In this document: piece after piece, positions 48,809-50,617 of the stretch
Numbering within the stretch: position 1 is the stretch's first letter
Layout: the number at the start of each line of letters is the position of its first letter
Source: Emticicia aquatilis
GTDB lineage: Bacteria > Bacteroidota > Bacteroidia > Cytophagales > Spirosomataceae
DNA length: 64,000 nt
Assembly: GCF_014644295.1 (NCBI RefSeq)
Contig: NZ_BMKK01000002.1
Location: forward strand, 682,001 to 746,000
Reading direction: 5' to 3'
The notes under the pieces: generated by a model
Seen by the model: the letters and a program-made list of their open reading frames with translations, nothing else
What the model was told of the DNA's origin: nothing
The model's database searches: none
Translations under genes and position numbers: made by a program

Positions 48809-50047
48809 TTAGTTAGAAACCCATTGCATTACAAGCCCAGTAAGGTAGCCACAATAAGTGCCAACGGCATTGCCAAGTATTGCCAACAAAACACCAATCG
48901 GAGCCAGCGAAGGATTAAATGCAGCCGCTACAACCGACGCAGAAGCAACTCCCCCAACATTCGCTTGCGAACCAACTGCTGTAAAGAAAAAAGGAGCTTT
49001 CACGATGTACGATGCAATGATAGTGAAGACTGCGTGAATCAAAATCCAAATCAATCCAACCAAAAATAACATCGGATTTTTGAACGCCTCAAAAATATGC
49101 AATTGCATACCAATAGTAGCAATCAGAAAGTAAAGAAACAAAGTACCAATTTTAGAAGCACCGAATCGCTCAAGATTACGAGCCTTCGTATTTGACAAAA
49201 TAAAACCTGAAAGCGATGAAACTGTCACAATCCAAAATGATTTGGACGCTAAACTATAAGCCTTCAGATTCGGATAATTGGTTTCGATAAAAGGAGCAAC
49301 ATTATCGGCCACAATATGAGCAAGACCCGTTATTCCAAACCCAACGGCCAGTAATAAAAATAATTCTTGAAATGTTGGATTCTTTTGTTTGGCACTTTCA
49401 ATCTCAACCCTTTCTTGTATTTCTTTAATGATACTTGCATCTGCTTTCATTTTTTTATCGATAATTGCAGCTTTTGCCACGAAATAAAGCAGAAACCCCA
49501 ACCATAACTCTGCAAAAAGCACATCAATCACACTCGTTTGGGCAAAAACAGCAGGCGATGGCTGAAAGATTTCTTTCAAAGCCAACTGATTGGCATTGCC
49601 GCCAGTCCAACTTCCAGCTATCGTAGCCAAGCCTCGCCAAATTTCTTCACCGTCTTTTCCCAAGAAAGTTGGGTCAATCATTTTTCCTACCCAAATTCCA
49701 ACTGGTCCGCCTACCATCACTCCTATTGCTCCAGCAAAAAAAACAAACAAGGCTTTTCCACCAAGCTGTCGAAGAGCTTGAATATCAATACTCAATGTAA
49801 AAAAGACTAAACAAGTTGGCAAGAAAAATCGTGAAGCGGTTTCGTCAAGCTGAGAATCAGCCGCCGAAATAACATTAAACGAACTCAATAAACCTGGAAT
49901 AAAAAAGCAAAGAAGTATTGAAGGAACAATTTTATAAAATTTCTCAAACGACTTTAGAGTAGTTGAATAAAAAATAATAGCCAACGTAGCCATTAAAATT
50001 CCAAGCACTACAGCATCGTTTGTAAAGAAGGCTTTTTCTTCAATCAT
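48809..50047 (-). CDS. DUF819 family integral membrane protein
   Basis: 412 residues with 11-12 hydrophobic segments. The family signature (QANVGGVASASVVAAAFNP and GPVGIWVGKMIDPTFLG, AGSWTGGNANQLALKEIF) marks DUF819, a relative of sodium-dependent or anion/cation transporter folds (YjcL-like). The inverted-repeat pattern of two gas-vesicle-like halves fits a transporter fold. Substrate unknown. Inner membrane. The next minus-strand item upstream is the tRNA-like RNA. Confidence 0.85.
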   Translation of the reverse strand: MIEEKAFFTNDAVVLGILMATLAIIFYSTTLKSFEKFYKIVPSILLCFFIPGLLSSFNVISAADSQLDETASRFFLPTCLVFFTLSIDIQALRQLGGKALFVFFAGAIGVMVGGPVGIWVGKMIDPTFLGKDGEEIWRGLATIAGSWTGGNANQLALKEIFQPSPAVFAQTSVIDVLFAELWLGFLLYFVAKAAIIDKKMKADASIIKEIQERVEIESAKQKNPTFQELFLLLAVGFGITGLAHIVADNVAPFIETNYPNLKAYSLASKSFWIVTVSSLSGFILSNTKARNLERFGASKIGTLFLYFLIATIGMQLHIFEAFKNPMLFLVGLIWILIHAVFTIIASYIVKAPFFFTAVGSQANVGGVASASVVAAAFNPSLAPIGVLLAILGNAVGTYCGYLTGLVMQWVSN

Positions 50048-50617
50048 GGTTTAGGTTTGTTTCAGTCAGAAACACAAAGTAAATAATTCTTGATTAAACA
50101 TTCGTGTTTTTTATACACAAAAAAACACGCAAACCTCAATTCGGGATTGCGTGTCGCAATTACACTTCATCAACAAACTAAAAACCAAATAATATTTTTA
50201 CTAAGCAAAAATACTCAAAAAAAAAGTATGAAAGAAATTTATCAATTAAAATATTCTTTCACACTTTTAAATTGCTTGCTGTAAGAGGGGGAGTCGAACC
50301 GCCCACGGTGTAGTTAGCCACAGTACAAATTTGGTGGTCAATCCCAGTCGACTAAGATAGTCCGGCTTTATGCTGCGTTTGTCCTATAATCACCACCCCC
50401 GAGACAGGAGGGCATGGCTGCCAATTTCATCACCTTACAGTATAAATCAAAACTTTAAACTTTGCTGTAATTGTGGTGCTTTGTCTTATTTTGATGTTAC
50501 AAAGTTAATACAAAAAAGACATACGTTGCAAATATTTTATAAAAAATATTTAATATTTACATTATTCATAATTTTTAATTAACTTTATTATCAAATTTAT
50601 AATTCAAGTTTTTAAAA
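50048..50617. other. 570-bp intergenic region holding one structured RNA
   Basis: No credible protein gene here. The part 50048-50278 is AT-rich with nothing recognised. The part 50279-50439 is a GC-rich tRNA-like structure on the minus strand. The part 50440-50617 is AT-rich and would hold the promoter of that RNA and of the AsnC gene. Confidence 0.7.
50279..50439 (-). ncRNA. tRNA-Leu-like RNA with a long variable region and Asp-type anticodon
   Basis: Read on the minus strand. Acceptor stem TGTAAGG (50439-50433)/TCTTACA (50286-50280), 7 bp with one G-U; discriminator G; no encoded CCA. Leucine-type D arm ATG-AAATTGGCAGC-CAT (50430-50414), with the 11-nt loop of E. coli tRNA-Leu. Anticodon-type hairpin CCCTC/GGGGG (50412-50408/50400-50396) with loop CTGTCTC, which places GUC at 34-36 and an unusual U37. 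T arm GGCGG-TTCGACT-CCCCC (50303-50287) has one C-C mismatch. The variable region is about 92 nt, closed by TGGTG/CACCA (50395-50391/50336-50332). A normal tRNA-Leu is about 85 nt, so this is either a new tRNA-like RNA, a degenerate tRNA, or a tRNA carrying an insertion. Confidence 0.55.

Follow-up and report, generated by a model that had tools for sequence, protein, structure and literature searches.

A 64,000-nucleotide stretch of the Emticicia aquatilis genome, here called the window, encodes an uncatalogued and conserved tRNA-shaped RNA of Bacteroidota bacteria and phage-like contigs. Conservation and covariation among relatives establish the family, its structure and its characteristic nucleotides. 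We tentatively propose that the RNA descends from tRNA-Leu and does not decode, but would serve tRNA-dependent asparagine synthesis.

A tRNA-shaped RNA family and its structure

A sequence-only reading had outlined a leucine-tRNA-like RNA on the minus strand, and its coordinates were exact (Table 1). Nucleotide 1 corresponds to position 50439 and the discriminator G73 to 50279; C74 is also encoded (50278, minus strand). The acceptor stem, the leucine-type D arm, the GUC loop with U37, the T arm and a GACTA-TCT-TAGTC hairpin are all present as described, and the insert of about 92 nt reported in place of the variable arm counts 91 nt. ARAGORN made no tRNA call in the 64-kb window. Neither the Rfam tmRNA model nor the tmRNA call of ARAGORN matched the RNA. 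No Rfam 15 family reached its gathering score in the window, in the region at relaxed threshold or in the loci of eight relatives; the matches brought up by relaxed thresholds in the region and the eight relatives were all far under the gathering scores, and tRNA was not among them. Of the findings named in advance as fatal to the reading, two were looked for, a known Rfam family and a lack of compensatory pairing; no such family was found, and compensatory pairing was.

BLASTN located the RNA in 42 of 58 related genomes, covering 31 of 47 genera, with compensatory changes in the insert (variable-arm stem and inner helix). A covariance model was built from 21 BLASTN-found members in which the anticodon arm was located with at most four mismatches. 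With the ten best candidates scored per genome, about 54 of the 296 genomes of the class reached at least 74 bits, a count that may be low. Below this value there was one match at 70.7 bits, the compact member of genome G046, and then a drop to 60 bits or less. A pattern for the anticodon region matched at least 118 stretches in genome contigs and 79 in viral contigs; Chitinophaga, Dyadobacter, Spirosoma, Algoriphagus, Cyclobacterium, Flammeovirga and many MAGs are among the matches listed. Two or three copies of the RNA stand in 25 of the 112 parsed named loci among the matches listed. Multi-copy loci include L115, L121, L140, L145, L171 and L185, and genome G347 has four matches above 115 bits to the covariance model. 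No description of the RNA was recognized in titles or abstract openings of the open-licence literature.

In the 21 members, 99.6% of the 525 cloverleaf cells are paired, and two-sided changes occur in 10 of the 25 pairs. Such changes affect 49 cells, against a shuffled mean of 14.9, and neither this number nor the covariation score was reached in 500 shuffles; one measure out of five, that of further pair types, did less well, as 39 of 500 shuffles reached it. In the D arm, 96.8% of cells are paired and two of the three pairs have two-sided changes. Taken alone, the window RNA folds no better than its own shuffles (z 0.21), and energy minimization does not yield the full cloverleaf. It is conservation and covariation, not single-sequence energy, that place the RNA above chance.

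The C-C mismatch previously read in the T stem is instead a bulged C. The window has GGG-C-GG against CCCCC, with one bulged pyrimidine and five pairs kept, and relatives keep the five pairs with a bulge of 0, 1 or 2 nt. Among 196 distinct cell members the T stem is regular in 155, has a 1-nt bulge in 38 and a 2-nt bulge in two, and is irregular in one; among 46 distinct phage members it is regular in 40 and bulged in six.

The TGGTG/CACCA helix that had been thought to close the insert also had to be given up, as it shows no two-sided change and is equaled by 500 of 500 shuffles. A pseudoknot derived from this helix was likewise rejected for lack of covariation. The variable region, which holds the hairpin named above, is closed instead by a GGTG/CACC stem. 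Its two inner pairs show two-sided changes in 7 and 12 of the 21 members, and the stem covaries strongly (GGTG/CACC, GGGG/CCCC, GAAG/CTTC, GAGG/CCTC). In the inner helix of the long form, 31 cells are changed on both sides and none of 500 shuffles reached the covariation score; its weaker side is that 79.6% of cells are paired and that the two-sided pair count was reached by 36 of 500 shuffles. The conserved element of the long form reads GACCAC or GACCAT in 128 of the 196 distinct cell members and in all 46 distinct phage members. Members are 110–177 nt long, nucleotides -1 and 74 included. As an exception, the member in genome G046 is 77 nt long and its variable loop is of the ordinary kind, and the variable-arm domain is reduced or missing in the short members L041, L043 and G046. 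Because this domain grows and shrinks between relatives, an inserted tRNA, one of the interpretations offered before, is unlikely.

Table 1. Features of the RNA and its surroundings (window coordinates unless a locus is named)
Feature	Position	Strand	Basis or remark
tRNA-like RNA, nucleotides 1-73	50279..50439	-	sequence, relatives, covariation
Acceptor stem 5' strand UGUAAGG	50433..50439	-	U1, G2, U3 nearly invariant in family
Acceptor stem 3' strand UCUUACA	50280..50286	-	A72 at 50280; G73 at 50279
D arm, tRNA-Leu type, AAAUUGGCAG loop	50414..50430	-	covariation
Anticodon arm	50396..50412	-	loop CUGUCUC 50407-50401
Anticodon GUC; U37; C38	50405-50403; 50402; 50401	-	
Variable-arm stem 5' strand GGTG	50391..50394	-	pairs with 50310-50307
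Variable-arm stem 3' strand CACC	50307..50310	-	covariation
Internal motif GGACAAA, conserved	50378..50384	-	alignment consensus GGAUAAA
Internal motif CTAAC, conserved, opposite GGACAAA	50313..50317	-	alignment
Inner helix 5' strand CGCAGCATAA	50368..50377	-	covariation
Inner helix 3' strand TTGTACTGTG	50319..50328	-	covariation
GACCACC element of long form, conserved	50333..50339	-	alignment
T arm, loop UUCGACU, bulged C at 50301	50287..50304	-	
Bacteroidota-type promoter TTG-N21-TAACTTTG	50500..50531	-	pattern scan
Likely intrinsic terminator, inverted repeat AAAGTGTGAAAGAA/TTTCTTTCATACTTT, then T run	50217..50267	-	by eye
Conserved 24-nt element TTTTAGTTTGTTGATGAAGTGTAA, then hairpin to ~50107	50160..50183	-	relatives
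Divergent AsnC-type Lrp/AsnC regulator, 154 aa	50618..51082	+	NCBIfam profile match
DUF819 membrane protein	48809-50047	-	downstream of RNA in many genomes of family
GatB-AspRS fusions beside gatA	L332:757-4059; L333:1953-5267	-; +	profile scans

Neighboring genes and phage copies

Three results go beyond the sequence-only reading: the AsnC-type neighbor, the meaning of the U1-A72 pair and the phage members. The neighbor scored 159.8 bits with the NCBIfam AsnC model, by far its best (LrpA 72.2, Lrp 47.3), and did not reach the 227-bit cut-off of the AsnC equivalog PRK11179; the protein is AsnC-type, not proven AsnC. A gene of this type adjoins the RNA in 40 of 43 loci (contig ends account for two of the exceptions), and in 33 of 47 loci of a second set, in which three genomes were counted twice and ORF picking overlooked one copy known from the 43-locus set. 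Among the matches listed, it adjoins the RNA in 71 of the 112 parsed named loci (of 118), with its start codon 122–270 nt from the RNA; eight of the 41 misses have less than 400 nt of upstream sequence. Orthologs of at least 176 bits were found in 68 of the 296 genomes, namely in 53 of the 54 RNA carriers and 15 of the 242 others. The 54th carrier, G202, has a broken AsnC-type copy next to the RNA. The flanks examined in the 15 AsnC-positive non-carriers contained no intact RNA copy. In G175 (L313:769-883, minus strand) a decayed copy that retains only the acceptor and T arms is divergent from the AsnC-type gene. According to a passage of PMC4482635, E. coli AsnC activates asnA, and asparagine abolishes the activation.

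A Bacteroidota-type promoter such as that in Table 1 lies upstream of 76 of 194 members; the reverse strand has four such sites, and shuffled sequences a mean of 1.9 (maximum 7). The candidate terminator was not reported by the automated terminator scan. Further downstream, the 24-nt element, which is possibly a small RNA or leader, occurs with at most one mismatch in 36 of the 58 related genomes. Terminator-like hairpins follow it in the loci read. The gene after it varies between genomes; it is DUF819 in the window, and other such genes look like those of a peroxiredoxin or LepA. A second copy of the element with one mismatch was seen in G022 (L082:1251 region), away from the tRNA-like gene.

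The 24-nt element marks the same site in three genomes without a BLASTN-detected RNA. In two of these, G031 and G029, a GatB-AspRS fusion of 1101–1105 aa stands before the element and is itself preceded by gatA (the GatA of G031 scored 434 bits, below the cut-off of 481). In the third, G024, the contig starts within this aspS, whose end lies at the contig edge. The AspRS part of the fusion shares 38.6% identity with the ordinary AspRS of E. aquatilis. The NCBIfam scans brought up no model of a GatB-AspRS fusion, while a model of an AspRS-GatC fusion exists, and no description of the former was recognized in literature titles or abstract openings. The presence of gatA and gatB-aspS in the place of the RNA is the strongest pointer to its function; it may also be a coincidence, because what lies downstream of the RNA is variable in other genomes.

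At least one ordinary tRNA accompanies the RNA in 47 of the 79 viral loci, and five or more in 21, compared with an ordinary tRNA in 8 of 118 cell loci among the matches listed. A terminase large subunit-type gene (assigned by representative) lies within 3 kb in 35 of the 79. An AsnC match was marked at none of the 79 viral loci, and the phage copies are thus not tied to AsnC. Palindromes of at least 10 nt follow GACCAC in 21 of the 46 distinct phage members (1.8% after base shuffling), a count in which related phages are not independent. At a length of at least 8 nt they occur in 26 of 46 phage members (shuffled 7.6%) and 16 of 128 cell members (shuffled 7.0%), again with base shuffles. Palindromes as a general feature of the family were rejected, as they belong to phage members only; in these they suggest self-pairing of two RNA molecules. 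The window RNA matches one huge-phage record without annotation, LR756504.1 (636 kb), over 99% at 69.5% identity. Two phage-member queries against INPHARED gave no matches. An apparent extra hairpin, inserted in the D loop, occurs in viral loci L235, L237, L262, L263, L264, L268, L270, L276, L302 and L308.

Identity nucleotides and asparagine-pathway genes

U35, C36, C38, G73, G2-C71 and U1-A72 are present in all 21 BLASTN-found members, U37 in 20 and G34 in 19, the other two having A34. Among 242 distinct members, U1 was found in 241 and A72, G2, C71, G73 and C74 in every one; members were accepted in this parse when eight of the nine pairs of the acceptor and T stems formed, and in the pattern-found sets the loop positions are subject to bias. 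A passage of PMC9976931 lists G73, G34, U35, C36 and C38 as strong aspartate determinants and G2-C71 as a minor one; it also states that U1-A72 confers amidation of Asp-tRNAAsn and that G1-C72 and U20a oppose it. The window RNA and 19 of the 21 members carry the full aspartate set (G34, U35, C36, C38, G73 and G2-C71). U20a is absent from the D loop, which reads GGCAG (G18-G19, then CAG) in 21 of 21 rows as numbered by hand. The tRNA-Asp of the same genome has G1-C72, G2-C71 and U3-A70. The tRNA-like RNA keeps the second and third of these pairs, and its first pair, U1-A72, is that of the genome's tRNA-Asn. The window RNA lacks two traits of tRNA-Asp, G1-C72 and the short variable loop. As G1-C72 of bacterial tRNA-Asp helps AspRS, its absence counts against AspRS charging. 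Loop variants among the members (A34, U34, C33, G33 and G37) should weaken AspRS recognition or the loop. A purine occupies position 37 in 275 of the 277 ordinary tRNAs of the loci, which makes U37 an argument against decoding. Most listed tRNA genes of the genome likewise have G73-C74 with a variable base after it.

The family model was run on 11 tRNA loci of the E. aquatilis genome with 25 ARAGORN calls, some of the loci overlapping. Its only two matches were tRNA-Leu(gag) and tRNA-Leu(taa), with scores of 47.6 and 49 bits; in these loci it missed a 74-nt call labeled Leu(tag) as well as the Ser and Tyr tRNAs. The tRNA-Leu(gag) shares T44, a 4-bp stem, GT and the T-stem layout with the tRNA-like RNA, which has a class II cloverleaf with the D arm and variable-arm layout of tRNA-Leu. 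From the model hits, the D arm and the arm layout, descent from tRNA-Leu is likely, and this part of the earlier interpretation stands. The marks of tRNA-Leu itself, an A73 discriminator and a Leu anticodon, are lacking: all 242 distinct members have G73, and the window RNA has GUC.

GatB was found in 54 of 54 carriers and 174 of 242 others (228 of 296 genomes overall). The E. aquatilis genome has AsnRS, GlnRS and GatB (404 bits; GatCAB was judged from GatB). AsnA is absent from it and the best AsnB match scored 50.8 bits against a cut-off of 267.1; none of the 11 genomes of the genus passes the AsnA or AsnB cut-off. A passage of PMC4206432 takes AsnRS, GlnRS and GatB without AsnA or AsnB as a sign of tRNA-dependent asparagine synthesis, and lists Bacteroidetes as one of the clades with such a gene set. 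In a set of 80 genomes, 42 of them carriers, AsnRS passes in 79 (the exception is carrier G119), AsnB-type in 69 and AsnA in seven. AsnB-type genes over the cut-off occur in 34 of the 42 carriers tested; these matches may include surface-polysaccharide paralogues.

GlnRS passes in 36 of the 80 genomes (two genomes exchanged). Among GlnRS-positive genomes, GatB is present in 26 of 26 carriers and in two of nine non-carriers (Fisher 5e-6, phylogeny ignored); these two are G068 and G031, the latter through its fusion, and G019 was left out. In GlnRS-positive genomes GatCAB is unneeded for glutamine. The remaining 16 carriers have no GlnRS over the cut-off and so need GatCAB for glutamine anyway. 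The prediction that absence of AsnA and AsnB tracks presence of the RNA found no support among the 58 relatives, where the RNA is present in 23 of 30 without either synthetase and 19 of 28 with one (p 0.56), and weak support in the 80-genome set, with 8 of 10 and 34 of 70 (p 0.09). The RNA, AsnA and AsnB are all missing from G019, G040, G047, G056, G284 and G089, and also from G035 (66% complete). Such genomes, showing no route that was looked for, would have other routes or be auxotrophs. The co-occurrence of the RNA with pathway genes is confounded by phylogeny.

Proposed role, alternatives and known systems

In the proposed route, the RNA would be transcribed and AspRS would recognize its aspartate identity set and attach aspartate. 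GatCAB would then read U1-A72 and amidate the bound aspartate to asparagine, which would be freed or passed on, and the ordinary AsnRS would load tRNA-Asn. Release of free asparagine is the weakest step of the scheme; precedents exist in Deinococcus and Thermus. U37, together with the bulged T stem or bulky variable arm of some members, may keep the RNA off Asp codons, and the AsnC-type regulator would adjust its supply to the asparagine level. Five lines, only partly independent, argue for the Asp-to-Asn role: the hybrid identity, the AsnC-type neighbor, the co-occurrence with GatB, the gene content of the genome and the replacement by gatA and gatB-aspS. Against it stand the AsnB-like genes in most carriers tested, the lack of a tie between the RNA and missing synthetases, the genomes without any route, the loop variants, shared ancestry and the carrier without AsnRS over the cut-off. 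In addition, the AspRS of the cell could be non-discriminating, as a passage of PMC4206432 describes for Bdellovibrio, and the RNA would then be unnecessary for making asparagine. Possible, but rather doubtful, is the wider picture of a tRNA class outside the genetic code. It would be an RNA cofactor dedicated to amino-acid biosynthesis, combining the codes for AspRS charging and GatCAB amidation, giving free asparagine from an ordinary AspRS under AsnC feedback, and phages would have adopted it with self-complementary loops for asparagine supply in infection.

The idea of a tRNA mimic, also raised by the sequence-only reading, is supported. A specific version, in which an uncharged Asp/Asn mimic signals Asp/Asn status by binding to AspRS, GatCAB or the AsnC-type protein, is nevertheless unlikely. 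The identity nucleotides and neighbors fit it too, as does the long variable-arm domain with its conserved GGAUAAA, GACCAC and CUAAC, and the phage palindromes suggest dimers. However, the RNA has G73 and C74 at its 3' end, like the genome's tRNA genes, U1-A72 and the GatB co-occurrence are hard to account for without amidation, and the shortest members do with little or nothing of that domain. An extra decoding tRNA for Asp codons, carried by phages within their tRNA sets, is more doubtful still. Such a tRNA would have the normal cloverleaf, the GUC anticodon and the U33 seen in most members, ARAGORN labels the 77-nt G046 member tRNA-Asp(atc), and the ordinary tRNAs in 47 of 79 viral loci (five or more in 21) would suit it; but the genome already has tRNA-Asp(gtc), U37 departs from the near-universal purine (275 of 277), the T stem is bulged in 40 of 196 distinct cell members, the length of 110–177 nt is odd, and the linkage to AsnC would be left unexplained.

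Equally improbable is a role in phage-host conflict, with the RNA acting as a decoy or spare target of, for example, nucleases that cleave the anticodon loops of GUN tRNAs. The 79 viral stretches, many near phage tRNA genes, and the very constant anticodon arm (biased there by the search pattern in the 242-member set) would suit a decoy, whereas most carriers seen have a chromosomal locus beside an amino-acid regulator, and relatives hold gatA and gatB-aspS, not defence genes, in its place. SerRS identifies its tRNAs by G73 and a long variable arm and ignores the anticodon. A serine-accepting RNA with a role outside translation could thus draw on G73, G2-C71 and the class II variable arm; it is very unlikely, as the GUC/C38 loop, AsnC and the replacement by AspRS and GatAB would go unexplained and the long arm is missing from the compact member of G046. 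We give next to no credence to a decaying tRNA-Leu pseudogene. The only ordinary-tRNA matches of the model in the 11 loci are the two tRNA-Leu, and relative G175 does carry a decayed remnant, but covariation and near-invariance across the class refute it, and with it the degenerate tRNA-Leu of the sequence-only reading.

The standard annotation tools used here, ARAGORN and Rfam 15, missed a widespread RNA family. If the Asp-to-Asn role is true, some bacteria employ a tRNA purely as a chemical handle in the synthesis of an amino acid, and biosynthesis on tRNA is separable from decoding. It would also help to explain why GatB is retained in Bacteroidota with AsnRS and GlnRS, and would give phages a new means to influence the amino-acid supply of the host.

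Among known systems, tmRNA (ssrA) is similar in combining tRNA-like ends, including a tRNA-type 3' end, with an added domain. The RNA described here differs in keeping an anticodon arm and in having U3-A70 in place of the alanine signal G3-U70, and it has no Rfam match. The tRNAOther of Bacillus cereus is a charged tRNA-like RNA with another amino acid and another layout, and is plasmid-borne. It too stands apart from the decoding set as an additional tRNA-like RNA that can be charged, charging being putative in the present case; the RNA here is spread through a class. The proposed enzymes are also those of the tRNA-Asn route of Bdellovibrio, Deinococcus and Thermus, in which, according to a passage of PMC4206432, a non-discriminating AspRS and GatCAB act on a tRNA with U1-A72; the accompanying set of AsnRS, GlnRS and GatB without AsnA or AsnB is also that of E. 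aquatilis. In contrast to that route, the amino acid would be carried here by an RNA distinct from tRNA-Asn, one that has the body of tRNA-Leu, a long variable-arm domain and an Asp anticodon and that cannot read Asn codons. The asnC and asnA genes of E. coli are divergently arranged. As in that pair, whose regulation is described in a passage of PMC4482635, an AsnC-type regulator stands beside a gene for asparagine supply, a proposed one in the present case: instead of an asparagine synthetase, the regulator here has as its neighbor the gene of a putative carrier RNA, which it would be predicted to control.
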